From Candidatus Omnitrophota bacterium (lineage in GTDB: Bacteria > Omnitrophota > Gorgyraeia > Zapsychrales > Zapsychraceae): a stretch of 33,021 nt of DNA. How positions within the stretch are numbered: the first letter of the stretch is position 1; every line of letters starts with the position of its first letter. Of this stretch, positions 3,920 through 23,607 are shown piece after piece. Where the stretch lies: the NCBI GenBank assembly GCA_029567025.1, contig JAKQLT010000217.1:1-33021 (forward strand), in the 5' to 3' direction. The translations under genes and the position numbers were made by a program. The notes under the pieces are model-generated. The model worked only from the letters and a program-made list of their open reading frames with translations, had not been told where the DNA came from and did not search any database.

Positions 3920-4700
3920 TTTTCTTCAACAGATCATCTCTCATAAACGCCATATCATCGAAACTAAAAAGGAATATTTTTTAAAGTTAAAGGATCATGC
4001 CAGCTGTTTGCAGACACAAAAGTATCATGTTTTTAAAAAAAGCATTTCAGCGCCTGATAAAATAAGTCTTATCGCAGAAATTAAGAAAGCCTCGCCTTCT
4101 AAAGGTCTTATTCGTGAAAATTTTGATGTTCTGTCTATTGCAAAAACTTATGAAGAACAAGGCGCGGCCGGGATTTCTGTCTTGACGGAAGATAGATTTT
4201 TTTTAGGAAGCATATCTTATTTGAAAAAAGTTGCGGATTGTGTTCATGTTCCGGTTTTAGCAAAAGATTTTTTTATCGATGAAGGACAGATTTATGAAGC
4301 CCATGCGCACGGGGCGAGCGCGGTTCTTTTAATTATGGCGATTCTAAAAGATCATGAAGTAAAACAATTAATGAATGTCGCGCGGTCTTTAGACGTGGAT
4401 TGTTTAGTTGAGGTTCACAATCGAGAAGAATTTTTGCGTGCTTTAGATTGTGGCGCTGAAATCATAGGCATTAATAATCGCGATTTAAAAACGTTTCATG
4501 TGGATCTTCGCGTTGCCGAAGAATTAATTCCGCAAATTCCTAAAGATAAAGTGATTGTCGTTGAAAGCGGCATTCATTTTTATGGTGAAGTAAAACGTTT
4601 TAAAGAATTGGGCGCGCAGGCGGTTTTAATCGGAGAAACTTTTATGAGAGAACAAGATATAGCACAAAAAATAAAGGAAGTGATGTATGGTCAAAGTTAA
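3909..4700 (+). CDS. trpC: Indole-3-glycerol phosphate synthase
   Basis: Closes the indole ring of carboxyphenylamino-deoxyribulose phosphate to form indole-3-glycerol phosphate. The 263-residue (beta/alpha)8 barrel shows 'IAEIKKASPSKGLI' with the catalytic lysine region, 'VLAKDFFID', 'LVEVHN', 'IGINNRDLKTF' and 'VVESGI', all diagnostic of TrpC. Translation starts at GTG 3909, overlapping the trpD stop by 11 bases; the end overlaps trpF by 14 bases. These overlaps indicate tight translational coupling of trpD-C-F. It is a stand-alone enzyme, not fused to TrpF as in enterobacteria. Confidence 0.96.
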   Translation: MEADFLQQIISHKRHIIETKKEYFLKLKDHASCLQTQKYHVFKKSISAPDKISLIAEIKKASPSKGLIRENFDVLSIAKTYEEQGAAGISVLTEDRFFLGSISYLKKVADCVHVPVLAKDFFIDEGQIYEAHAHGASAVLLIMAILKDHEVKQLMNVARSLDVDCLVEVHNREEFLRALDCGAEIIGINNRDLKTFHVDLRVAEELIPQIPKDKVIVVESGIHFYGEVKRFKELGAQAVLIGETFMREQDIAQKIKEVMYGQS

Positions 4701-5298
4701 GGTGTGCGGGATAACGAATTTTGAAGACGCGTCGAAATCCGCGTTTTATGACGCGGCGGCTGTTGGTTTTGTTTTTTGCAAAAAAAGTCCTCGCTATATT
4801 TCGCCGAGTAAGGCCAGAACGATTATTGAAAAGTTACCGCCGTTTGTGACTCCTGTCGGAGTTTTTGTAGATTTAAATGAGCGTGCGGTACGCGATATTT
4901 GCCGTTTTACGCGTATTTCAACGGTGCAGTTTCACGGAGAAGAAGATCAGATGTATTGCAAGCGCTTTAAAGATTATAAAATCATTAAAGCGTTTCGTGT
5001 CGGAGAGTATTTTGATATTGAAAAAGTGAAAAAATACAAAGTAGACGCGTTTCTTTTTGATACATATCAAGAAAATGTTGCCGGAGGCACAGGAAAGACA
5101 TTTAATTGGTATCTTTTAAAAGATATAAAATTTGATAAACCGGTTATTTTGTCCGGCGGCTTAAATCCTCTTAACGTAAAAGAGGCGATAGGGATTCTTA
5201 ATCCTTTTATGGTCGATGTCTCAAGTGGCGTTGAACAATCACCCGGCATTAAAAGTCCAAAATTAATCCGAGATTTCTTTGAGGCGGTAAAAGCGTAG
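4687..5298 (+). CDS. trpF: Phosphoribosylanthranilate isomerase
   Basis: Performs the Amadori rearrangement between the TrpD and TrpC reactions. The 203-residue barrel begins 'VKVKVCGITNFEDA', where the Cys of KVCGI is the usual general base, and continues with 'GFVF', 'VQFHGEE', 'LFDTYQENVAGGTGKTFNW' (catalytic Asp and phosphate loop), 'ILSGGLNP' and 'VDVSSGVEQSPG'. It overlaps trpC by 14 bases and is the last gene of the first trp block. The next trp gene, trpB, lies about 5 kb downstream. Confidence 0.96.
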   Translation: MVKVKVCGITNFEDASKSAFYDAAAVGFVFCKKSPRYISPSKARTIIEKLPPFVTPVGVFVDLNERAVRDICRFTRISTVQFHGEEDQMYCKRFKDYKIIKAFRVGEYFDIEKVKKYKVDAFLFDTYQENVAGGTGKTFNWYLLKDIKFDKPVILSGGLNPLNVKEAIGILNPFMVDVSSGVEQSPGIKSPKLIRDFFEAVKA

Positions 5299-5338
5299 GA
5301 AGTTTTTTACAGCTTATAATTATGAGAAAGACAATTTC

Positions 5339-5989
5339 ATGAATTTTTTTATTAAGATGGTAGTCCCGTTTTTGCCTGTTTTCGTTTTCTGCTTTGTTTA
5401 TTTATTTTTTTTAACGATTTCTAGGCCCCAATTATTAGGATGGAAAGATTCTTTTTTAAAGAGTGCTGTCGTTTGGGCAGGATTAGTGGTTCTTAGCACT
5501 GAAATATTAAGTATTTGGCACGCGTTAAATTTTGAAAATTTAGTCTTTTTTTGGTGTTTTTTATTCTTTGGGCTTCTTTTTTTATTTTTTATAAATCGTA
5601 AAAAAGTATTTTCTATAGAAATAGAATTTTTAAAAAAAAGATTCCTTTCTTTTTTTTCTTTTTCCTTCGCAGTAATATTAAGTTTTTCCTTAGGGCTTCT
5701 TTTTTTGGCGGTAGTGGCCCCGCCGAATAATTATGATTCAATGACTTATCATATGTCGCGGGTAGAGCATTGGATCCAAAATCAAAGTGTTTTTCATTAC
5801 CCTACTAATATTACTCGTCAATTATTTTCTGCTCCATGGGCAGAGTTTGCGATTCTTCATTTTCAGATATTATCTCGATCAGATTTTTTTGCAAATTTAG
5901 TTCAGTGGACATCTTTTCTCGGAGTTGTGATTGGCGTTATGGCGATAGTTGAGAAAATAGGTGGGGGGGGGTATATGTTCAAACTTTAG
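5339..5989 (+). CDS. GT39/PMT_2-like membrane glycosyltransferase, N-terminal part (frameshifted)
   Basis: First 216 residues of a polytopic GT-C glycosyltransferase. Strongly hydrophobic segments span roughly 7-30, 42-60, 64-85 and 104-128. They are followed by the loop 'PPNNYDSMTYHMSRVEHWIQ', whose Asp is in the position of the catalytic Asp of GT-C enzymes, and 'QLFSAPWAEFAILHFQ'. Such enzymes move a sugar from a polyprenyl-phosphate carrier onto lipids or proteins at the outer face of the inner membrane. The frame leaves the homology after nine G (5963-5971) and stops at 5989. One added G would join it to the frame ending at 7293. TATAAT at 5315-5320 is a possible -10 box. Phe/Leu-rich codons are unlike the neighbouring trp genes. 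Confidence 0.8.
   Translation: MNFFIKMVVPFLPVFVFCFVYLFFLTISRPQLLGWKDSFLKSAVVWAGLVVLSTEILSIWHALNFENLVFFWCFLFFGLLFLFFINRKKVFSIEIEFLKKRFLSFFSFSFAVILSFSLGLLFLAVVAPPNNYDSMTYHMSRVEHWIQNQSVFHYPTNITRQLFSAPWAEFAILHFQILSRSDFFANLVQWTSFLGVVIGVMAIVEKIGGGGYMFKL
5963..5971 (+). repeat. Homopolymer run of nine G at the frameshift point
   Basis: The run lies inside the glycosyltransferase coding region, exactly where the conserved reading frame changes. With 10 or 7 G the two halves join through '...VYVQTLAALLTASLP'. It could be a phase-variation tract or a sequencing deletion. Confidence 0.85.
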
Positions 5990-5997
5990 CGGCATTA

Positions 5998-7293
5998 TTG
6001 ACAGCTTCTCTTCCCATGGGTATTTTGCAAGCCACAACGACACAAAATGATTTAGTCTTAAGTTTTTGGGTCGTTTCTTTTGTTTATTTTTTGTTCCAAA
6101 CTATTAAAAATAATAATCGCAGTATCCTTCCATATGTTTTTTTAGGGTTATCGGTGGGGATTGGGTTCCTCACAAAAGCTACAATGATTTTTTTTATTGT
6201 TTCTTTTTGTAGTCTGGGAGTGCTTCATTTGTTATGCAAAAGAGAATTCAAAAAATATCTGAAAGGATTTGTTATTGTTTTTTCTATCGCGCTTTTGTTT
6301 AATGTAGGGCATTTTTATAGGAATTATGATTTGGGACAGCACATTCTTATGCCGATTCCAGAGGTGTCAAAAAATGTTGTTAATGAGCGTTTTTCTTTTA
6401 AGGGAGGATTGTCTAATACGATGAGAAATATTCTCCTGCATCTGAATTCGCCTTTTGAAGAAATAAATAATTTGATTTTTTCTTTTTCAAAAAAGATTCA
6501 TCAGTGGATGGATGTCGATTTTGATGATGCTCGGTATACTTATGGAAAAATTAAAGATTTTACTGTGAAAAATCATATTCATGAAGATGTTAGTGGGAAT
6601 TTTTATCATTTTTTGTTTTTGTTTATTTCTTTCATGGCGATTTTTTTATCGAGAAAAAAATATTTTAATAATTTTTATTTTTCTTTCTTGTTTTTTGGGA
6701 ATTTATTGGCTTTTTTTATTTTTTCTTTTTATTTAAAATGGCAACCATGGGGAAGCCGTTTGCAATTGCCTTTTTTTATGCTTGCGATTGCTTCAGTTGT
6801 ATTATTGTTTCAAGATATTAAAACTCGTTGGAGGTTTATTGTAAATGGGATTATTTTTTTCATTGTTTTTTCTTCTAGTCCATATCTTTTAAAAAATCCT
6901 GCTAAACGGTTAATTTCTGCGAAAAAGGCTACTGTTTGGAATACTTCGCGAGAGGATATGTATTTTGTTTATCATGAGAGATTGAGGAAAAAAGAATATA
7001 GAAAAATAGTGAATTATATAAAAGACTCCAACTGCCATGAGATTGGCTTATTTGTTGGGGAAGATGATTGGGAGTATCCCTTTTTTGCTTTGTTTCGAAA
7101 AGAGCAGTATCCTGTTCACATAGAACATGTTTTTGTTAAAAATGCGTCTTATAAATATTCTGACTTTTTATTCTCTCCTTGCGCTGTTATTCTTAAGCGC
7201 GAAATATCTGAAATAGATAGAAAGAAGAACGAAGATTTTTTTAAGTTGAAAAAATATTATTCGGATTATTTTGAATTATATTTAAAGGAGTAA
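5998..7293 (+). CDS. GT39/PMT_2-like membrane glycosyltransferase, C-terminal part (frameshifted)
   Basis: Continuation of the gene at 5339. The correct frame is open from the G run at 5971 ('VYVQTLAALLTASLPMGILQ'); 5998 is only the first start-like codon (TTG) in it. The 'MGILQATTTQNDLVLSFWVV' motif, conserved in this glycosyltransferase family, is followed by about seven further membrane segments and a soluble C-terminal domain of about 130 residues. There is no ribosome-binding site at 5998, so independent translation is unlikely. Together the two parts would make a protein of about 660 residues, a normal size for the family. As written, the gene is off. Confidence 0.78.
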   Translation: MTASLPMGILQATTTQNDLVLSFWVVSFVYFLFQTIKNNNRSILPYVFLGLSVGIGFLTKATMIFFIVSFCSLGVLHLLCKREFKKYLKGFVIVFSIALLFNVGHFYRNYDLGQHILMPIPEVSKNVVNERFSFKGGLSNTMRNILLHLNSPFEEINNLIFSFSKKIHQWMDVDFDDARYTYGKIKDFTVKNHIHEDVSGNFYHFLFLFISFMAIFLSRKKYFNNFYFSFLFFGNLLAFFIFSFYLKWQPWGSRLQLPFFMLAIASVVLLFQDIKTRWRFIVNGIIFFIVFSSSPYLLKNPAKRLISAKKATVWNTSREDMYFVYHERLRKKEYRKIVNYIKDSNCHEIGLFVGEDDWEYPFFALFRKEQYPVHIEHVFVKNASYKYSDFLFSPCAVILKREISEIDRKKNEDFFKLKKYYSDYFELYLKE

Positions 7294-7349
7294 AGAATTG
7301 TTATTTTATATGAATCTTGTAAGTCTTTTATTTTCTAAGCGATAAAAAT

Positions 7350-7378
7350 TTGTTATTTTTTAAAATGCATGTTATCTT
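7350..7378 (+). promoter_or_regulatory. Promoter of the riboswitch RNA
   Basis: TTGTTA at 7350-7355 and TATCTT at 7373-7378 are 17 bases apart. Transcription would start at about 7384-7386, immediately before the first strand of the riboswitch closing stem. Each box matches the consensus at four of six positions. Confidence 0.5.
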
Positions 7379-7386
7379 TTGTTTAG

Positions 7387-7577
7387 GCCGATAAAGGTAA
7401 ACCCGGGGAAACTCGGGGACACAAAGCCGACAGACCTAAATAGCGTAAGACCTAAAAGGCCCGACGGTTCCTTAAGTGGACGGGGCATACCACGAGATGT
7501 GGCGAGGCGGTTGATGAGCTAAATGGTGGCTGGGTTGCCGAAGAGCGAGGGCGGGAGATATCCGCATCTTTATCGGC
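7387..7577 (+). promoter_or_regulatory. Cyclic di-GMP-I (GEMM-I) riboswitch with enlarged arm
   Basis: The 5' half reads AGGTAAACC, a hairpin closed by a GAAA tetraloop (7409-7412), GGGACACAAAGCC (7417-7429) and GACCTAAA (7433-7440). The 3' half has AATGG (7522-7526) and GGTGGCTGGGTTGCCG (7525-7540). These match the GEMM-I core, including the GNRA loop and its CCTAA/AATGG receptor. The guanine equivalent to Vc2 G20 (7397) is kept, which favours c-di-GMP over cGAMP. TAGC 7441-7444 pairs with GCTA 7518-7521 beside the receptor; beyond it sits an unusual insert of about 70 bases (7445-7517). GCCGATAAAG (7387-7396) is an exact complement of CTTTATCGGC (7568-7577), forming a closing stem. A terminator follows directly. 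Confidence 0.82.
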
Positions 7578-7595
7578 TCTCTTCTTTAAAACGAT

Positions 7596-7622
7596 AATCC
7601 CTTACATGATAAGGGATTTTTT
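7596..7622 (+). terminator. Intrinsic terminator of the riboswitch
   Basis: AATCCCTTA (7596-7604) and TAAGGGATT (7610-7618) form a 9-bp stem with a five-base loop, followed by a run of T (7617-7622). CGATAA at 7592-7597 overlaps the first stem bases and can alternatively pair with TTATCG at 7570-7575 in the 3' strand of the closing stem. Ligand binding would therefore release the terminator, making this an OFF switch (inference). Confidence 0.82.
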
Positions 7623-7681
7623 ATTTGAAAGACATCTTTTCAAAAATCCTTTTAAAAAAAATAAGCAAAAAAAATGAATTA

Positions 7682-7690
7682 TGCTACAAT
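7682..7690 (+). promoter_or_regulatory. Extended -10 promoter of the zinc-ribbon gene
   Basis: TGCTACAAT at 7682-7690 is an extended -10 box. Its expected start site is at about 7697, two bases from the ATG at 7699, and no ribosome-binding site is present. This predicts a leaderless mRNA and argues against the in-frame ATG at 7681, which lies inside the box. Confidence 0.5.
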
Positions 7691-7698
7691 ACGAATTT

Positions 7699-8004
7699 AT
7701 GAGTGAAAAATTAATGCGTGTGTATAAGAAATATGATGTGAGTCAGATCAAGCCGCATTTGATGATTTATGGCGATTTAAACGGCAGTTGCGCTAATTGT
7801 AATAATCTTAATGTGAAATTTACCGATATACAATGCCCCGAATGTAAATCTATTTTTAAATATATCGCTTTTCGCAATCCCAAGAATCATATCCCCAAAA
7901 TTTATAAATTAATGGAAGAAAAGCCCGATATGCTGATTATTGATTATGATGATTATCATAAAGCCTTAGGGGATCAGAAAGCCAAGAGCATTTTTAATGA
8001 TTAA
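7699..8004 (+). CDS. Small zinc-ribbon protein of unknown function
   Basis: A 101-residue cytosolic protein. Two CxxC pairs, 'CANC' near residues 32-35 and 'CPEC' near 48-51, are spaced as in a zinc ribbon. No transmembrane segment or signal peptide is seen. The C-terminal half ends in an acidic 'LIIDYDDYHKALG' region. I do not recognise the family. ATG 7699 is chosen over ATG 7681 because the latter overlaps the promoter. The gene follows the riboswitch terminator and overlaps the M20 peptidase start by eight bases, so the two are co-translated. Confidence 0.75.
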   Translation: MSEKLMRVYKKYDVSQIKPHLMIYGDLNGSCANCNNLNVKFTDIQCPECKSIFKYIAFRNPKNHIPKIYKLMEEKPDMLIIDYDDYHKALGDQKAKSIFND

Positions 8005-9139
8005 TCGGCCGCGTCTCATTCAAACACTGCAAAAAGTTGTTTCCTATAATTCTGAAAATCCGCCGGGAAATGAATTAGTCTTATCTCGTTTTATCGCCCA
8101 AGATATGAGATCGCTTGGGCTTGATGTGAAATTATATTCTTTTGCCAAAAATCGGCCGAATGTTATCGTCACATTAAAAGGAACATTTGAACGAGAAAAA
8201 GCGCAAAAACAAGCTCTTTTAATTACGCCGCATATTGACACTGTGCCGGCCGGAAAGGGATGGAAATATCATCCGTTAAGCGGTACTATTTCTGGCGGAA
8301 AAATTTACGGTCGAGGCACAAGTGATGATAAAGGAAATTTAGCCTCTTGTATGGAAGTCATGCGCGGTTTAGTTGAGGATAAAATAAAATTGCGTAAAGA
8401 TGTGATTTTAGCCGCGACGGTTGATGAAGAAACAGGAAGCCATTATGGCATAAAACCGCTTTTGGATAAAAAAATATTACGTCCGAAAATTGCGCTTGTC
8501 TTAGATTCTGATGAAGGCGACGCGATTGTCGCTCAAAAAGGATTGATGCATATTCGGATTCAGATTTTTGGAAAAAAAGCGCATGGCGCGTATAATTGGA
8601 AAGGTGTTAATGCGATTGAAATCGCGACGAAAATTATTACGCAATTAAAACAGATGGCTTTTAAATATAAAAAACATCCTTTATTGCGGCCTCCGACGGT
8701 AAATATCGGGACGATTAAAGGCGGTGACAAGGTCAATATCGTTGCGGATTTTTGTGAGTTTTCGGTTGATATTCGTTATTTGCCTGGCATGAATCCGCGC
8801 AATATTTTAAAAGAAGTAAAACATATTATTCGGAAATATATTTCAAAATTTAAAATTCTCGTTGATGATTTACAGTTTCCGTATGAAATAAGTGCGGAAA
8901 ACTCAGCTGTAAAATTGTATGTGGAAACAATCAGAAAATATGGGCTTAAAGGAAAATTAAAGGGAAGCGAAGGCGCGACCGTGATTACATTTTTTCAGGA
9001 ACATAAAATTCCAGCATTTGCATCAGGCTTTAGCGCCAGCGGCACCGCGCACGCAACCGATGAATTTATTCGCATGAACACATTATATAAAGGAACAAAA
9101 GCGCTTGAGGCGTTTATTAAAGAATATGATAAGAAATAA
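7997..9139 (+). CDS. M20 family metallopeptidase (ArgE/DapE/CPG2-like)
   Basis: A 380-residue dinuclear zinc hydrolase of the deacetylase/desuccinylase family. Zinc and catalytic motifs are in order: 'THIDTVPAG' (HxD), 'YGRGTSDDKGNLAS' (bridging Asp), 'DEETGSHYG' (catalytic Glu-Glu), 'LVLDSDEGD' and, near the C-terminus, 'SGTAHATDE' with the last His ligand. A dimerisation domain interrupts the catalytic domain at roughly 190-290 ('IQIFGKKAHGAYNWKGVNAI'). Substrate cannot be told from sequence; acetylornithine, succinyl-diaminopimelate or dipeptides are all possible. No lysine or arginine genes adjoin it. It overlaps both neighbours, forming a three-gene unit. Confidence 0.88.
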   Translation: MINRPRLIQTLQKVVSYNSENPPGNELVLSRFIAQDMRSLGLDVKLYSFAKNRPNVIVTLKGTFEREKAQKQALLITPHIDTVPAGKGWKYHPLSGTISGGKIYGRGTSDDKGNLASCMEVMRGLVEDKIKLRKDVILAATVDEETGSHYGIKPLLDKKILRPKIALVLDSDEGDAIVAQKGLMHIRIQIFGKKAHGAYNWKGVNAIEIATKIITQLKQMAFKYKKHPLLRPPTVNIGTIKGGDKVNIVADFCEFSVDIRYLPGMNPRNILKEVKHIIRKYISKFKILVDDLQFPYEISAENSAVKLYVETIRKYGLKGKLKGSEGATVITFFQEHKIPAFASGFSASGTAHATDEFIRMNTLYKGTKALEAFIKEYDKK

Positions 9140-15566: not shown

Positions 15567-16730
15567 ATGAAAAATCTAAAAAGAATTCTTAATATCAAAC
15601 TTCCGCAAAAACAATCCGCGTTTTTATGGGGAGCTAGAAAAACAGGGAAGACAACTTATCTTAAAGAGAGATTTCCTAAAAGCATTGTATATGATTTTTT
15701 GAAAACGGATTTATTTTTTGAGATCTCAAAGAATCCTTCGCTTTTACGTGAACGATTGCTGGCACAAGATGAAACGGCCCTTAAAGAACCTATCATTCTT
15801 GATGAAGCACAGAAGGTTCCTCAAGTTCTGGATGAAGTGCATTGGTTAATAGAAAATAAAGGTTTAAGATTTGTCCTCTGTGGATCAAGCGCCAGAAAGC
15901 TTAAGAAAGGGCATGCTAATCTTTTGGGTGGCAGGGCTTGGCGATATGAATTGTTTCCTCTTGTTAGTGCGGAAATTGGAAAAATTGATTTGCTGCGTGC
16001 TTTAAATCAGGGGCTCATTGCCAGTCATTATTTAGAAGAGGAACAATCGTCTAAGAAATCTTTAGAGGCTTATTTGCAGGATTATCTACGAGAAGAGGTT
16101 TTTGCTGAAGGGTTGACACGCAACATTCCAGCTTTTTCGAGATTTTTTGATGCTTTCGGATATTCCCATGGGGAGTTAACAAACTATACTAACATTGCGC
16201 GGGAATGCGGCGTTGATTCAAAAACGGTTAAAGAATATTATCAAATTTTGGTAGACACTTTGTTGGCGGTCAGGGTGGAACCTTTTAAAAAAAGACAATC
16301 GCGGCAAGTTATTTCTAAAGCTTCAAAATATTATTTGTTTGATGTGGGCGTTGCAGGATATTTGACAAAAAGACATTTAACAGAATGTAGGGGTTCAGAG
16401 TTTGGAAAGGCGTTCGAACATTTTATTTTGATGGAAATCGTTGCGTATAAATCCTATTCAAGTAAGGGTTTTACAATAAATTTTTGGAGAACGAAATTGG
16501 GCGTTGAGGTTGATTTTGTATTGGCACAAGGCGAAGTGGCCATTGAGGTTAAAGGTTCTAACCAAATTGAAAGAAGAAATATGAACGGAGTAGAAGTTTT
16601 TGCCCAAGCCTTTAATCCTAAAAGAAGCATTATTGTCTGCAATGAAAAAGAAAAGAGATTGTGTGGAAAAATAGAAATATTACCCTGGCGGATTTTTTTA
16701 GAGCAACTCTGGGCAGGCAAAATATTGTAA
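15567..16730 (+). CDS. AAA_14/DUF4143 family ATPase
   Basis: A 387-residue member of a widespread accessory-genome ATPase family. Walker A is GARKTGKTT (22-30), Walker B is 'IILDEAQ' (76-82), and sensor-like 'FVLCGSSARKLKK' follows. A helical region ('ECGVDSKTVKEYYQILVDTL') precedes the DUF4143 C-terminal domain with 'EFGKAFEHFILMEI' and 'EVDFVLAQGEVAIEVKGSN', a PD-(D/E)xK nuclease-like core. The biochemical function of the family is not settled; these genes are scattered and often transferred. The start at 15567 lies ten bases after GGAGG (15552-15556). Confidence 0.9.
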   Translation: MKNLKRILNIKLPQKQSAFLWGARKTGKTTYLKERFPKSIVYDFLKTDLFFEISKNPSLLRERLLAQDETALKEPIILDEAQKVPQVLDEVHWLIENKGLRFVLCGSSARKLKKGHANLLGGRAWRYELFPLVSAEIGKIDLLRALNQGLIASHYLEEEQSSKKSLEAYLQDYLREEVFAEGLTRNIPAFSRFFDAFGYSHGELTNYTNIARECGVDSKTVKEYYQILVDTLLAVRVEPFKKRQSRQVISKASKYYLFDVGVAGYLTKRHLTECRGSEFGKAFEHFILMEIVAYKSYSSKGFTINFWRTKLGVEVDFVLAQGEVAIEVKGSNQIERRNMNGVEVFAQAFNPKRSIIVCNEKEKRLCGKIEILPWRIFLEQLWAGKIL

Positions 16731-17017: not shown

Positions 17018-17629
17018 ATGAACAAAGAAGAGGTTATTAAACAGTTTTTAGATCAAAAAATGCTGGTTTTTTCTTTTGAGGATTTTTGCGCGTTTTATCC
17101 TCAAGAAAATCCGGAAACGATTAAGAAGTGCCTTTTTCGTCTAAAAAAAAGAGGCTGGTTGTCTTCTTTGCGTAAAGGCCTTTATGAAATAACATTTCCG
17201 CAGGATTCTAATCTTCCTGATTTATATTTAGCCAATAAAATTTACGCGCCGTCTTATGTGTCGCTTCAAACCGCATTGTCGCATTATGGCATTATTCCTG
17301 AAGTCGCTATGGCGGTAACCTCCATTACGAGTAAAACAACACGGCAATTTAAAAATAAATACGGTTTGTTTATTTACCGCGCGGTTCAGCCTAAAATGTT
17401 TTGTGGTTATCAGATTGAAAAATATAATGGTTATAATGTGTTAATTGCAGAGCCAGAAAAAGCCTTGATGGATTATATTTATTTTCAAACATTTCGAGGC
17501 CAGAAATTTGATAGAGAAGCGCATCGTATCGATATGAAAAGAGTGAAGAAGATGAATAAAAAGAAAATTCAAAATTATGCGCAGTTATTCGGGCTAAAAT
17601 TAAAGGAGTCGCTTTATGCTCACATTTGA
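17018..17629 (+). CDS. AbiEi-type antitoxin
   Basis: A 203-residue protein with an N-terminal winged helix ('FCAFYPQENPETIKKCLFRL' then 'KKRGWLSSLRKGLYEI') and the AbiEi-type body 'IYAPSYVSLQTALSHYGIIP' and 'LIAEPEKALMDYIYF'. In the type IV AbiE systems the antitoxin represses its own operon and blocks toxicity without a stable complex. The downstream toxin gene overlaps it by 14 bases, the standard layout. A near-consensus promoter lies upstream. Such pairs act in phage defence by abortive infection or in plasmid or island maintenance. Confidence 0.88.
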   Translation: MNKEEVIKQFLDQKMLVFSFEDFCAFYPQENPETIKKCLFRLKKRGWLSSLRKGLYEITFPQDSNLPDLYLANKIYAPSYVSLQTALSHYGIIPEVAMAVTSITSKTTRQFKNKYGLFIYRAVQPKMFCGYQIEKYNGYNVLIAEPEKALMDYIYFQTFRGQKFDREAHRIDMKRVKKMNKKKIQNYAQLFGLKLKESLYAHI

Positions 17630-18410
17630 GGCTTTAAGCGAAGATGCAAAATTAAGAGGCATGCCAACGGCTAATACTCGCGGTATTTTACGGGAATATC
17701 TTCAGATTTTGATTTTAAAAGAGATGTATCAATTGCCGGCGGGCAGAAAGCTTTTCTTTACTGGTGAAACCTATTTAAGGCTGGCGCATCAAACGAAAAG
17801 ATTCTCAGAAAATTTAGATTTTAATGTCAGCGCTATGAGTAAGATTGAATTTGAAAGTGTTTTACAAAAAATCCAGGCCACGCTTAAGAAAACGGGTGTT
17901 AATACAAATTTGGAATTTGAGCATTGGGGAAATCTTTTTGTGGCTGAGCTCATTTTCCCAGATATCGAGAAATTTTATGGGATCGTTTTACCTCATTCTA
18001 AAAAAGAGGGAATTGTCATTAAGGTTGAAGCAAACAATCCAAAGTGGAACATTAAAACACAAACGCTCGCCATTACAGGTTTCGGACAAATGTATCCAGT
18101 TATTTGCACGGATAAAGGCGCTTTGTTTGCTGATAAAATTGACGCTTTGTTAAAGAAAAATCGAGCAAGGCATCTTTTTGATATTATTTTTATGTTATCT
18201 AAGAAATATCCGGTTGATAGCTACGTATTAAAATCGTTGGGAATTACAGAAAATCCTTTTGATGTTATTGTTAAATGTGTCAACAGTTTTTCTATTGAAG
18301 AATTAAAGAAGCAAGCGGAATCTTTAAGGCCTTTTCTTTTTGATGAAAGAGAGGCTGATTTAATTATTAACGCTCCTGCTATTGTAAAACAGTTGCTTGA
18401 GATGGATTAA
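17616..18410 (+). CDS. AbiEii-type nucleotidyltransferase toxin, active site altered
   Basis: A 264-residue member of the AbiEii/AbiGii family, whose DNA polymerase beta-like fold transfers nucleotides to RNA targets. The core is recognisable as 'LFFTGETYLRLAHQTKRFSE' then 'NLDFN', and the C-terminal 'RARHLFDIIFMLSKKY' matches the family's 'RDLYDLY' region. However, the usual 'GGT' reads GET (50-52), and the usual 'EDLDF' reads ENLDF, replacing the first Asp of the DxD pair with Asn66. Both changes affect positions expected for nucleotide and metal binding, so activity may be lost. It overlaps the antitoxin by 14 bases. Confidence 0.85.
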   Translation: MLTFEALSEDAKLRGMPTANTRGILREYLQILILKEMYQLPAGRKLFFTGETYLRLAHQTKRFSENLDFNVSAMSKIEFESVLQKIQATLKKTGVNTNLEFEHWGNLFVAELIFPDIEKFYGIVLPHSKKEGIVIKVEANNPKWNIKTQTLAITGFGQMYPVICTDKGALFADKIDALLKKNRARHLFDIIFMLSKKYPVDSYVLKSLGITENPFDVIVKCVNSFSIEELKKQAESLRPFLFDEREADLIINAPAIVKQLLEMD

Positions 18411-18430
18411 CTGTATAAATAGTTTTTTTG

Positions 18431-18492
18431 CTTGCTTTCCGTTTAACCTTTCGACATTATATCTTTTGATGAAAACCCCGCAATTATTTTAG
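18431..18492 (+). repeat. Decayed copy of the ABC-exporter promoter and first codons
   Basis: CTTGCTTTCC, TTAACCTTTCGA, a TATA-rich box and ATGAAAA followed by a TTATTTT-like stretch repeat, in the same order and spacing, the sequence at 20889-20951, which includes the start of the exporter gene. Here the frame from ATG 18469 reads MKTPQLF and stops at TAG 18490-18492, against MKKTNLFF at 20927. From 18411 to 18881 I see no other gene. Confidence 0.65.
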
Positions 18493-18881: not shown

Positions 18882-19030
18882 ATGGCGAAAAACGTATCGA
18901 TTAAAAAAATGCTACAGGTAAGGACAATACAGTTCGGGGAGAGGTAGCAAATCCTGGTCCAGATAAAGGTTGTCATTATCTTCCGAAGATCTCTAACCCG
19001 TGTGAAACAGACGACCCAATGTATCAATAA
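18882..19030 (+). CDS. Candidate RiPP precursor peptide, two frames joined at a run of seven A
   Basis: ATG 18882 follows a perfect AAGGAGG (18870-18876). The zero frame stops after 21 codons at TAG 18945-18947. At the seven A (18903-18909), a -1 shift, or one extra A, continues into a frame ending at TAA 19028-19030. The joined product is 49 residues: 'MAKNVSIKKNATGKDNTVRG' then 'EVANPGPDKGCHYLPKISNP' and 'CETDDPMYQ'. A basic, Cys-free leader and a short Gly/Pro/Asn-rich core with Cys31 and Cys41 are typical of RiPP precursors, and a SPASM radical SAM gene follows. 'CETDD' fits the C-x3-D spacing seen in some thioether-forming peptides (speculative). Programmed slippage, phase variation or a sequencing error are all possible. 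Confidence 0.6.
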
Positions 19031-19223: not shown

Positions 19224-20864
19224 TTGAAAATGAAATGTTCGAAAATAATTAAGCCAATGCTTTTATTCCCATTTATTGCTAATGAGAAATATTATGTTTA
19301 TTTGCCTGTTTTGGGGGAAGTGTGGAATATTGATAGAAATGTTTTATATGAGGCTTTAAAACTTTTAAGTTCTTTACGTGTTGAAATGAGCGTTAGTGTT
19401 TTTAAAAAAAAATTAGTGGATAAGACAGCTGTTTCTGAACAGGATTGGAAGGGTGTTGAAGAATTGATTTTAACACTACAGACTCCTCAAAACACGAGAT
19501 TTTTAAAAAGGTCTGAAATTAATAAACGATTTTATCGAGAAAAAGAAATCATTGAAAAACGATATAATGAAACGTTAAAAATATATCGTTTGGGAAAAAA
19601 CAACGATGCAATTTCTGGTAAGCTTATATTAAATTTAACAGATCGTTGTAATTTTAAATGCAAATATTGTGTAGAGAGGGGAGATTTGTATTATGAACCA
19701 TCTGATCGTTGCTTGGGGAAAATGACTAGGGAAATAGGTTTTAATGCTATTCAAGACTTCTTATTTCAGCGAAAAAGAAGTGTTGTTAAGGAAGTTGAGA
19801 TTGTTTTTTTTGGCGGAGAACCTCTGATAGAGATGAATCTTTTAGTGGATCTTATTGAATTTGCAAAGAAAACACATAAAGGGTTATCCATGCGGCCTTG
19901 TTTAGTCCTAAAAGTTGCGACGAATGGGACATTACTAAACAAAACAAATGTTAGATATTTTGTTAAGGAAAACATTTGTTTACAAATCAGCCTTGATGGC
20001 CCTAAGGAAATACATGATAAATTTAGGCATAATATCGCGGGATTAGGCACGTTTAAGGCGGTAAGTAAAGCTGTAAGGATGCTTAAAAGAGAAGCCTTTG
20101 AAATGAGAAAGTTTGATTACTTTAGTAAATGTGTGTTTTTTATCGGGACATTTACAGATAATGCCGATAAGGAAAAAATAAAGAATTTTTTCTTACGGAC
20201 ACCTCTTCTTGTTTCTCTTCATGGAAAAAGGGCAATGTTTTTTTTGAACGCGATTTCTCCCTGTGGCCTGAAGGATTGTTATAGCTTTATAGAAAGAAAA
20301 ACAACAGCGCTTGAGAACTATGATTCAATAAAAAAGGATATTAACTCATTGAAAGATTCAAATGTCCCAAGAGATTATAAAATAAGCATACAAAGGCGAT
20401 TGAATTATTTTTGTGAAAAGAATGCTCAAAAGTTTTTGACCCCATCCCCCAGGAAAGAGCCTTGCGTATTAAGTGATAAATTGTGCAATATAGTTCAAGA
20501 AACAAAAACATTTGTAGAGTCTGATGGAACTATATATTTCTGTTCTCTTTGTAAAATTAAAGAGTTGGCCATAGGGAGTTATGCGGATAAAGGAATTGAT
20601 TTTGAGAGAATTAAAATTATTATGCAAGAATATTTGCAGTTCGGTAAAAAATGTTATAGTTGTCCCATACAGCCAGTATGTTCTCTTTGTTATCGAGATG
20701 GGAATGTTAATGGTCAGAAATATTTTTTTCCGCATAAAAATTCAAAGAATTGTGTGGATAATTTTAGACGGGTTCGCGAAAATTTTTCCTTTTTTTATGG
20801 ATTGATTGATGTTGTCCCCGAATTTAAGGTTTTTTATGAGAGATGGTTGAATAGGAGAAGATAG
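19224..20864 (+). CDS. Radical SAM/SPASM peptide-maturase-like enzyme
   Basis: A 546-residue protein. The radical SAM cluster motif CNFKCKYC (Cys142, 146, 149) sits in 'LILNLTDRCNFKCKYCVERG', followed by 'VFFGGEPLIEMNLL' (SAM-binding GGE) and 'VATNGTLL'. The C-terminal SPASM region has many Cys ('IYFCSLC', then 'CYSCPIQPVCSLC' and a last 'CVDNF') for extra iron-sulfur clusters. About 130 residues precede the motif and may hold a peptide-recognition region; I cannot confirm one. SPASM enzymes modify peptides (thioether or C-C bonds) or act as sulfatase maturases; no sulfatase is nearby, and a short two-Cys peptide gene is upstream. TTG 19224 is six bases from AAGGAG (19212-19217); ATG 19230 is the alternative. 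Confidence 0.85.
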   Translation: MKMKCSKIIKPMLLFPFIANEKYYVYLPVLGEVWNIDRNVLYEALKLLSSLRVEMSVSVFKKKLVDKTAVSEQDWKGVEELILTLQTPQNTRFLKRSEINKRFYREKEIIEKRYNETLKIYRLGKNNDAISGKLILNLTDRCNFKCKYCVERGDLYYEPSDRCLGKMTREIGFNAIQDFLFQRKRSVVKEVEIVFFGGEPLIEMNLLVDLIEFAKKTHKGLSMRPCLVLKVATNGTLLNKTNVRYFVKENICLQISLDGPKEIHDKFRHNIAGLGTFKAVSKAVRMLKREAFEMRKFDYFSKCVFFIGTFTDNADKEKIKNFFLRTPLLVSLHGKRAMFFLNAISPCGLKDCYSFIERKTTALENYDSIKKDINSLKDSNVPRDYKISIQRRLNYFCEKNAQKFLTPSPRKEPCVLSDKLCNIVQETKTFVESDGTIYFCSLCKIKELAIGSYADKGIDFERIKIIMQEYLQFGKKCYSCPIQPVCSLCYRDGNVNGQKYFFPHKNSKNCVDNFRRVRENFSFFYGLIDVVPEFKVFYERWLNRRR

Positions 20865-20888
20865 TCAGAAGCTAAAAATATTTTTCCT

Positions 20889-20951
20889 CTTGCTTTCCCG
20901 CTAACCTTTCGATACTATAATTCTCAATGAAAAAAACAAATTTATTTTTTA
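20889..20951 (+). promoter_or_regulatory. Promoter and start region of the ABC exporter gene (intact copy)
   Basis: TATAAT (20916-20921) ends five bases before ATG 20927, and no ribosome-binding site is present, so the mRNA is probably leaderless. TTGCTT (20890-20895) is a -35 candidate with a long 20-base spacer. The segment is repeated in decayed form at 18431-18492. Confidence 0.55.
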
Positions 20952-23089
20952 CCTACCAAAAATACATTCTCCCTTATTTAGGCAAAAGCGTTCTATCTCT
21001 TGTGATTGGCACAACGGCTATGATTTTTGGTATGATAACGCCGCTGATCACGAAGGTCTCCATTGATTACGCGTATCCTAATCGAGATATTTTTCTTTTA
21101 ACATTATTAATTCTTGCCGGAATTGTCCTTTTTCTTATTCGACGATTTTTTGATAGCATCGCCGGATATTTGGATATGTTTACGGATACGGACCTTGGCA
21201 TAAAGTTAAAAACAAAATTTTATGATAAGCTCCAAGAGCTTTCTTTAAAATTCCACAGTGAACAGCAAGCCGGCGATTTGGTCTATCGCATGGATGATGA
21301 TATTTCAACCGTTACATCCATGATCACGCAATTTATCGCGACTTCTTTGCAAACCTTAGCCCAGCTTTTCTTTTTATTATTTATCTGTTTTAAATTCGAT
21401 TGGCGTTTTACGGCGCTGGCTTTAACGGGCATTCCTATTTATTTTCTGGAAACCATGGTTTTTTCGAAAAAGCGTAAAGATGTTAGAGAAAAATCTTTAA
21501 AAATTCATTCCAGCCTTCAAAGTTATCTGCAGGAACGTGTGCCTGCTATAAAAATGATTAAATCTTTAGGCCGCGAGAAATTTGAATCCACGCTTTTTAA
21601 GAATAAAATAAAAGAAGTTTTTTTTGTGACTCGTCAAAGTCATGTGGTTTCATTTTTGAATTCTTTCGCGGATTCCTTTATTAGCACTATTTGGCTCGCG
21701 ATTCTTGGCTGGTATGGCGGCTATCGTGTGATTACCGGGAATTTAAGTATCGGCGAGCTTTTGGCTATTACCGCGTACGTTTCTCAAATTTACGGGCCGG
21801 TTATGCAAATCGGCGATATTTATAAATTTATGATCGAGGGCATGGTTTCGGTCAAACGTATTGATGAGGTTATTTCAGGAAAACCTGGAGTTGAAGACGC
21901 TCCCGACGCAAAAGAGCTCAAAGATGTCAAAGGCGATATTCTTTTTAAATCGGTTGATTTTAGTTATGTGCCGGAAAAACCTCTTATGAAGGATATTAAT
22001 TTAGCAATTAAAGCCGGGACATCCGTAGCCCTTGTGGGCCCAAGCGGCGCGGGAAAAACAACATTTACAGATTTGATTATGCGGTTTTATGATCCGGATA
22101 AAGGCGATATTTTTATTGATGGCCATAATTTAAAAAGCATCACACAAGAATCGTTGCGTAAGGCGGTGACTATTGTTAATCAGGAAATTACAATTTTTAC
22201 CGGGACAATTAAAGAAAATATTAAATATGGAAAAGAAAATGTGAGTTTTGAGGATATTGTCTCCGCGGCAAAAATGGCTAATGCCCATGAATTTATTGAA
22301 AAGCTTCCCGATGGATATGACACGATGCTCACTGAACGCGGGCGTAATTTATCCGGCGGACAAAGGCAAAGACTTACTATTGCGCGCGCGCTTATTCGTA
22401 ATCCTAAAGTTTTGATTTTGGATGAGGCGACTTCCGCGCTTGATCCTGAAAGCGAAGCGCGTATTCATGATGCGATGATTAAATTTAAAGAAGGCCGCAC
22501 GGTTGTTACGATTGCGCATAAACTTTCTACTATTGTTGATGCGGATGAAATAATGTTTTTTGAAAAAGGTCAGATTTCTGAACGCGGGATTTTTAATGAA
22601 CTTATGGCCATGAAAGGCCGTTTCGCTCGGTTTTTTGAAGTGGAGTTTGGAAATTTCCGTCATTTTTCAGATCGTTTGTCCCAGGAAGCCTTGCGTACCA
22701 AGCGTTATAAACGGCCATGTTCTTTTATGATGGTTCAGTTGCGAGATTTGGGGTTGTTAGCTCAAAAAATAGGCGAGGAAAATTTACGCGAAGTGTCTTT
22801 ACAAATAGAAGATGTGATACGTCTTTCTATTCGTGAAGTGGATTTTACGGCGAAATATCATGAAAATCGTTTTGTTGTGGGTTTGCCTGAAACTCCATCA
22901 GATGGCGCGCGTGTTGCCGCTGAGAGATTAGAAAAAAGAATCAGAGAATATTCTTTTGTAAAAAAAGATGAAGAAATAAAGGTTTCGCCTGTTATAGGCA
23001 TCGCGACGATAGGAGAAGACGCTCATACCACCACAGATCTTTATGTGCGCGCGGAAAAAATGATCGAAGATAAGTTGGCAGGAGTTTAA
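20927..23089 (+). CDS. ABC exporter with C-terminal degenerate GGDEF domain
   Basis: A 720-residue half-transporter. Six membrane helices (about 15-305) form a type I exporter fold; there is no N-terminal C39 peptidase. The ATPase domain has Walker A GPSGAGKTT (371-379), signature LSGGQ (475-479), Walker B VLILDE (495-500) and His531. Residues about 575-720 align end to end with a GGDEF domain ('RPCSFMMVQL', 'IGEENLREVSL', 'FVVGLPETPSDGARVAAERL', 'VIGIATIGED'), but the catalytic motif is HENRF (645-649) and the metal-binding Asp residues are absent, so no cyclase activity is expected. R636-E-V-D639 lies five residues before it, the exact place of the c-di-GMP inhibitory site. It probably exports a peptide or lipid under c-di-GMP control, with the next gene as partner. 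Confidence 0.88.
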   Translation: MKKTNLFFTYQKYILPYLGKSVLSLVIGTTAMIFGMITPLITKVSIDYAYPNRDIFLLTLLILAGIVLFLIRRFFDSIAGYLDMFTDTDLGIKLKTKFYDKLQELSLKFHSEQQAGDLVYRMDDDISTVTSMITQFIATSLQTLAQLFFLLFICFKFDWRFTALALTGIPIYFLETMVFSKKRKDVREKSLKIHSSLQSYLQERVPAIKMIKSLGREKFESTLFKNKIKEVFFVTRQSHVVSFLNSFADSFISTIWLAILGWYGGYRVITGNLSIGELLAITAYVSQIYGPVMQIGDIYKFMIEGMVSVKRIDEVISGKPGVEDAPDAKELKDVKGDILFKSVDFSYVPEKPLMKDINLAIKAGTSVALVGPSGAGKTTFTDLIMRFYDPDKGDIFIDGHNLKSITQESLRKAVTIVNQEITIFTGTIKENIKYGKENVSFEDIVSAAKMANAHEFIEKLPDGYDTMLTERGRNLSGGQRQRLTIARALIRNPKVLILDEATSALDPESEARIHDAMIKFKEGRTVVTIAHKLSTIVDADEIMFFEKGQISERGIFNELMAMKGRFARFFEVEFGNFRHFSDRLSQEALRTKRYKRPCSFMMVQLRDLGLLAQKIGEENLREVSLQIEDVIRLSIREVDFTAKYHENRFVVGLPETPSDGARVAAERLEKRIREYSFVKKDEEIKVSPVIGIATIGEDAHTTTDLYVRAEKMIEDKLAGV

Positions 23090-23091
23090 AA

Positions 23092-23607
23092 ATGTTCGGG
23101 AAAAAAGAATTAAAAGAAAAGAAATTATCGCTTAAGCAAAAAGGTTTTTTGGATAAAATCTTTGAAGAAGACATTCAAAAGCAAGCGAATTGCGTTGAAG
23201 TTTTAGGATGGGTAGGGCTTGTTGTCTTTGTGTTTCTTTTAGCCGTGCTCTGGACAGCCAAATTTGATGTTACTGTCCCGGCTGATCATGTTAAATTGGT
23301 TTCTTTACCGTCGGATAATAGTTTTATTCTTGAAGGTGAGATTGCAGAACTTTATGCGGCCTCGATTAAGAAAGGTCAAAAGGTTCACGTTCAAATTACT
23401 ACTCATCAAAATGAAGTTTTAAAGGTCACAAGCGCTATTTCTGAAGCGTATCCTAAAACGGGAACATTAAGTTTAATTATTAAAGTCGCGCCCATGCTTG
23501 ACGCTGGCAAACTTCAAGCTATTTCCAAAGAGATAAAGAATATATCTTTACGCGTCATTGTTGAACAAAAACGTCTTGTGACTCTTTTTCTCGAAAAACA
23601 AGAGTAG
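23092..23607 (+). CDS. Membrane-anchored adaptor-like protein, partner of the ABC exporter
   Basis: A 171-residue protein with a basic cytosolic N-terminus, one membrane helix (about 36-55) and a beta-rich periplasmic part. 'DHVKLVSLPSDNSFILEGEI' and 'LYAASIKKGQKVHVQIT' resemble the barrel-sandwich region of HlyD-type membrane fusion proteins, but the long coiled-coil hairpin that reaches an outer-membrane channel is missing. It starts two bases after the exporter stop with GGAG at 23081-23084, so the two are coupled. I call it adaptor-like from context and weak resemblance; a regulator of the exporter is also possible. Confidence 0.6.
   Translation: MFGKKELKEKKLSLKQKGFLDKIFEEDIQKQANCVEVLGWVGLVVFVFLLAVLWTAKFDVTVPADHVKLVSLPSDNSFILEGEIAELYAASIKKGQKVHVQITTHQNEVLKVTSAISEAYPKTGTLSLIIKVAPMLDAGKLQAISKEIKNISLRVIVEQKRLVTLFLEKQE

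Follow-up and report, generated by a model that had tools for sequence, protein, structure and literature searches.

The window, a stretch of 33,021 nucleotides from a member of the Omnitrophota (genome of 1.6 Mb in 241 contigs, 93% complete), carries on its forward strand a gene for an ABC exporter with a degenerate C-terminal GGDEF domain. This gene (20927–23089) was delineated from the list of open reading frames, Pfam matches and the translation, and encodes 720 amino acids in a single open reading frame without a break. An ABC_membrane transmembrane region covers residues 22–292 (20990–21802; Pfam PF00664, 1.9e-38) and an ABC_tran ATPase domain match covers residues 355–503 (21989–22435; Pfam PF00005, 2.1e-34). 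Walker A, signature (LSGGQ) and Walker B motifs are present in the translation, and the H-loop is present beyond the end of the ABC_tran match. Key residues of the ATPase showed no variation across an alignment of 19 exporters. By its domains and motifs the protein is a type I ABC exporter (half transporter). In a full-length predicted model, the exporter part resembles TM287/288 and the peptide exporter PCAT1 upon comparison with the PDB, and ABC exporters alone were found among the 50 matches listed. Pfam matches with E values of up to 1 include no C39 peptidase, and the transmembrane match begins as early as residue 22; the protein is not a peptidase-containing ABC exporter (PCAT). Its scores lie below all curated subfamily cut-offs among the 25 matches listed and, therefore, the substrate is not told by the family. 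The GGDEF match starts at residue 576 and most exporter profiles end at about residues 566–577, so that the ATPase domain passes almost directly into GGDEF. All three domains (ABC_membrane, ABC_tran and GGDEF) score above the Pfam curated cut-off.

A fused orthologue of 723 amino acids is encoded in a separate assembly, that of Candidatus Aceula lacicola (Omnitrophota; positions 5924–8095 of the Aceula locus). It shares 72% identity with the window exporter over residues 1–719. An assembly or frameshift chimera was ruled out, since the identical fused architecture occurs in this independent assembly. The uninterrupted reading frame, the Pfam domains and the second assembly together confirm the type I ABC exporter with a continuous C-terminal GGDEF domain that an earlier note had read from the window. 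Beyond Aceula lacicola, no further fused orthologues were found in the genomes sampled. Three apparent extra orthologue entries turned out to be the one Aceula locus and three other locus entries the window itself; each was counted once.

The frequency of the fusion was surveyed in several genome samples. A match spanning the ATPase and GGDEF domains was found, among the matches listed, in 2 of 384 Omnitrophota genomes. Another sample of 384, drawn from the class, yielded the same two fused proteins; the draws share genomes and their counts are not additive. In both surveys at most five candidates per genome, of about 11 to 59, were scored and the best matches listed. When 80 exporter loci were examined, one was fused (Aceula), this check being confined to listed matches having a locus. 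Among the matches listed for 149 genomes sampled from the phylum of a Planctomycetota locus and for 149 from that of a Clostridium locus, spanning matches were absent (13 candidates per genome scored, best matches listed), as they were in six single genomes. In a tblastn search of plasmids, 8 of 5000 retained records spanned 80% or more of the query; in the best of these (Paenibacillus) the exporter and the gene that follows it are separate, with no fusion. These surveys are samples with partial scoring, Pseudomonadota lie outside them, and uniqueness cannot be claimed. The literature on c-di-GMP receptors and transporters yielded no report of an ABC exporter fused to GGDEF, and in the main text of a 2025 review of c-di-GMP effectors the words "transporter", "ABC" and "exporter" do not occur. 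The earlier note had found the architecture unfamiliar and had proposed a survey across genomes. Its impression agrees with the genome samples and the literature, neither of which is exhaustive, and the survey added one other fusion, that of Aceula lacicola, in the genomes sampled.

The degenerate GGDEF domain comprises residues 576–714 (22652–23068) and matches PF00990 at 8.8e-14, scoring 52 bits where the curated cut-off is 23.8; the tail of the Aceula orthologue also exceeds this cut-off (49.6 bits). Comparison of the last 158 residues with solved structures gave 17 distinct sequences at E ≤0.01 (best 3.3e-7), all named GGDEF, diguanylate cyclase or response-regulator proteins. In the alignment to 3ign, which is described as a c-di-GMP complex, R636-x-x-D639 falls on R-Q-S-D. 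A predicted model of residues 553–720 reached a pLDDT of 79.2 and a pTM of 0.75 (alignment of 9 rows). This model matched GGDEF structures with a best Foldseek E of 3.3e-11 and superposed on PleD 9g86_B with a VIA-align Z of 21.5 over 153 aligned residues at 2.2 Å. The underlying alignment took in seven active GGDEF rows from viral-collection loci, and these helped the fold prediction. In the full-length model, where a single orthologue covered the GGDEF part in the alignment, a similar, GGDEF-like order of strands and helices was seen at lower confidence (block means 37 to 78, residues 571–720). A combined alignment with misplaced GGDEF fragments was left out of folding. Chance similarity of the tail to GGDEF was ruled out by profile, sequence-to-PDB and fold evidence, and as modelled the tail has a GGDEF fold. 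The assignment of residues of about 575–720 to a GGDEF domain, for which the earlier note had suggested structure prediction and an HMM search, was upheld by both.

At the active site, GG(D/E)EF is replaced by HENRF (residues 645–649; 22859–22873) in the window protein and by HENYF in Aceula, HEN being common to both, as read from translation and alignment. Thirteen positions which we take to be catalytic or signature positions, and which are conserved in active relatives, are replaced in both orthologues (D604, D606, F608, K609, N612, D613, H617, G620, D621, G645, G646, E647 and E648). An active diguanylate cyclase was ruled out on account of these 13 of 13 replacements. The I-site residues of PleD are, in the numbering that we assume, R359, D362 and R390. 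In the translation and tail alignment of the exporter, the primary I-site is R636-E-V-D639 (22832–22843), followed after five residues by HENRF, and a third I-site residue is R667 (22925–22927), located by the tail alignment and the numbering of SgmT (PMC3509222). R667 lies 31 residues and the start of the A-site 9 residues after R636. All three residues are kept in the window and Aceula proteins, and they account for three of the 10 columns without variation in an alignment of 14 sequences. Both orthologues thus carry the I-site receptor pattern, RxxD five residues before the A-site plus a further Arg, and the surrounding block REVDFxAKYHENxFVVGLPET is nearly unchanged between them. The loss of the active motif and of the metal-binding Asp residues, as well as the position of RxxD, had been described in the earlier note and proved correct in both proteins; R667 and the gene neighbourhood are additions to it.

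Identity between the orthologues amounts to 243/330 over residues 1–330, 188/240 over residues 331–570 and 85/150 (57%) over the tail, residues 571–720. The corresponding dN/dS values are ∼0.07, ∼0.06 and ∼0.12, with dS saturated. Identity and dN/dS together indicate a tail under purifying selection, maintained but freer than the rest of the protein. The tail was compared with 31 GGDEF domains that were aligned with it and had been picked, for their similarity to it, from Omnitrophota belonging to the same order (two rows represent one gene). The I-site Arg is found in 30 and the Asp in 29 of these 31 domains. The I-site Asp is common in GGDEF domains generally. Among columns conserved in at least 90% of these active relatives, both orthologues kept 3 of 3 I-site columns versus 10 of 32 others (hypergeometric p = 0.044; 0.044–0.111 over five thresholds, uncorrected). 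Retention of the I-site thus seems to be weakly beyond chance, the excess being weak because close active GGDEF domains carry the same motif. With one orthologue found, conservation of the I-site rests on two sequences.

The exporter gene is preceded by a gene for a radical SAM/SPASM peptide maturase of 546 amino acids on the same strand (19224–20864; PF04055, 2.1e-10). Among NCBIfam models it matches best that of CcpM, a maturase of Cys-rich peptides (TIGR04068, 6.5e-44). By score, neither this protein (150.6 bits) nor the two Aceula maturases (209.9 and 205.3 bits) are CcpM equivalogs, for which the cut-off is 500; by its domain and similarity to maturases, the 546-residue protein classifies as a RiPP radical SAM/SPASM maturase. 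Two bases past the exporter stop codon, a gene for a small HlyD-like membrane protein of 171 amino acids begins (23092–23607, forward strand; PF13437, 8.5e-5, 23.7 bits against a cut-off of 22.2). The protein is 44% identical to that of Aceula 8107–8595, which is HlyD-like by this identity and has no family match itself. A candidate precursor peptide region, read from the sequence by a strong ribosome-binding site and an ATG, is located at 18882–19030 of the forward strand. Its start and its Cys-containing C-terminal part are in different frames, interrupted at an A-run; candidate causes of this frame break are sequencing error, decay or frameshifting. In the Aceula locus, an open reading frame of 48 amino acids with Cys and Arg (1053–1199) lies before the maturases, and its strong ribosome-binding site is near-identical to that at 18882. 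In Aceula, two radical SAM proteins are followed by a PF12640 protein, and this in turn by the fused exporter and the HlyD-like protein. The PF12640 protein (4691–5848) is peptide-arginase-like with a long C-terminal part (47.6 bits against a cut-off of 27; NF052474, 1.4e-30, 106.7 bits against a cut-off of 350). Peptide arginases, classified as pfam12640, are described as converting Arg to ornithine in RiPPs (PMC12703449). It is probable that the exporter gene is part of a RiPP cluster. The substrate is quite likely a peptide, and a substrate other than the cluster peptide is conceivable.

The maturase profile matched 2 of 384 Omnitrophota genomes at E 1e-40 and 2 of 81 genomes of the order at 1e-30. 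Maturase and fused exporter (the latter among the matches listed) each occur in the same two of the 384 genomes, and their genes lie together in both. These two genomes belong to different families, and the maturase was found neither in one genome of the window's genus nor in two of the genus of the Aceula genome. The joint occurrence in the same two genomes of different families suggests that the cluster is probably mobile, and horizontal transfer appears likely in view of the two families and the congeneric genomes without maturase. Sequence comparison revealed an imperfect direct repeat (72%) of 18423–18490 at 20881–20948 of the forward strand, where it extends over the start of the exporter gene and the sequence upstream of it. 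The two 68-base copies bracket the peptide and maturase genes, and the copy at 18423–18490 looks like a remnant of the exporter start. Genome-wide, exact matches to the core motif of the repeat were confined to these two sites; directly before the exporter in the Aceula locus the motif was not seen. The repeat may record an insertion or duplication of the cassette. An AbiEi/AbiEii-like toxin-antitoxin pair adjoins the cluster (17018–18410; PF08843, 1.1e-11), the first gene of which has a weak DUF6088 match only, and an AAA_14/DUF4143 ATPase is encoded at 15567–16730. AAA_14/DUF4143 ATPases are often located near mobile or horizontally acquired regions.

With matches to 8 GGDEF (five above 145 bits), 1 EAL and 11 PilZ domains in the window genome, c-di-GMP is very probably present in the host cell. 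Two further partial GGDEF domains in this genome (52.7 and 25.4 bits) are possibly other degenerate receptors. We consider it somewhat probable that the protein is a RiPP-like peptide exporter whose dead GGDEF domain, placed on the ATPase domain, acts as a c-di-GMP receptor controlling export. By analogy with SgmT and PelD, binding of c-di-GMP by the tail and gating of transport are reasonable to expect; binding is fairly likely, and control of transport, not of location alone, has an even chance. The cargo would be the peptide that the adjacent radical SAM maturase produces. The exporter would work as a homodimer, and the two GGDEF tails would therefore lie next to each other beneath the ATPase domains. 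c-di-GMP would be bound at the I-site (R636, D639 and R667), probably as an intercalated dimer bridging both GGDEF domains, and would alter their spacing and hence the ATPase cycle. In known structures, GGDEF domains are bridged by ligand dimers at the I-site; if the two tails paired in this way upon ligand binding, the ATPase domains could be held or released. Peptide export would in this way be tied to the cellular c-di-GMP level.

Inheritance is a real alternative explanation for the I-site, as the nearest active GGDEF domains of the same order share the motif almost throughout and the statistical excess of its retention is marginal. The tail might then serve as a ligand-free dimerisation or docking module with I-site residues left over from an active ancestor. 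We judge this rather unlikely: all 13 catalytic and signature positions were lost, whereas all three I-site residues were kept in sequences that are only 57% identical in this region. Degenerate GGDEF domains can be repurposed, and some of those in GGDEF-EAL proteins bind GTP. The HEN residues kept in both orthologues would fit a tail that binds another nucleotide or ligand, such as GTP or another cyclic dinucleotide, but the residues aligned with the GTP site, both glycines included, are replaced, and we regard such a ligand as very improbable. Known receptors also point to a tail that would bind c-di-GMP but serve location or partner recruitment instead of the transport cycle. In SgmT and PopA, binding at the I-site serves sequestration (PMC3509222), and the degenerate GGDEF domain of BcsE binds c-di-GMP as well as a partner protein (PMC7439463). 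Against a function of this kind, which we think unlikely for the exporter, the GGDEF domain almost abuts the ATPase domain, and mechanical coupling would therefore be easy.

If the tail does act as a c-di-GMP receptor controlling export, a wider and more tentative proposal follows, which we hold to be possible but somewhat doubtful. A peptide natural-product exporter would be gated directly by c-di-GMP via a built-in dead diguanylate cyclase, release would be switched post-translationally by the signal for motile or attached life, and the whole device would move between lineages as a cluster. The many targets of c-di-GMP include kinases, synthases, secretion ATPases and transcription factors; an ABC exporter that carries a c-di-GMP receptor domain of its own was not found in the literature searched. 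The system would, if the proposal is true, couple lifestyle signalling directly, at the post-translational level, to the export of a peptide natural product in a little-cultured phylum. It would also be a compact system in which to probe whether ligand-induced pairing of two C-terminal domains controls an exporter ATPase cycle. Each of the two modules is familiar; the fusion of ABC exporter and GGDEF and its RiPP setting seem not to have been described within the literature searched.

Among the closest known systems, SgmT of Myxococcus xanthus likewise has a C-terminal GGDEF domain with a dead active site and an intact I-site (PMC3509222). It binds c-di-GMP dependent on the I-site R763/D766/R794, with the A-site starting at G772, and the spacing is identical to that in the exporter (R-3-D, R-9-A-site, R-31-R; PMC3509222). 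Unlike the exporter, the effector in SgmT is a histidine kinase and GGDEF governs its location; an M. xanthus mutant with GGDEF-less SgmT had no evident difference in phenotype or gene expression (PMC3509222). PelD of P. aeruginosa and B. cereus, part of a polysaccharide secretion system, also binds c-di-GMP through a degenerate GGDEF domain by RxxD and a further Arg (PMC7112168). The B. cereus protein has a Kd of 103 nM, and binding was undetected after Ala changes of R363, D366 and R395 (PMC7112168). PelD differs in that it stands alone as a protein of the Pel system, has a GAF domain and is not joined to an ABC exporter. In enterobacterial cellulose secretion, BcsE resembles the tail in its degenerate GGDEF domain, I-site c-di-GMP binding and link to secretion (PMC7439463), but it has REC and N-terminal domains and recruits BcsRQ, without an ABC exporter. 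ABC exporters of the PCAT1/HlyB/MsbA type, of which PCAT1 exports peptides, share fold and motifs with the window exporter, which differs by the additional C-terminal GGDEF domain and the missing C39 peptidase match. Radical SAM/SPASM RiPP clusters (CcpM, PapB-like) have the same combination of maturase, small peptide and exporter, and the Aceula cluster also has a protein of the PF12640 family, to which peptide arginases (OspR/FlmR) belong. In contrast to CcpM and PapB-like clusters, the maturase scores listed here are below the equivalog cut-offs, and the exporter carries a GGDEF domain.
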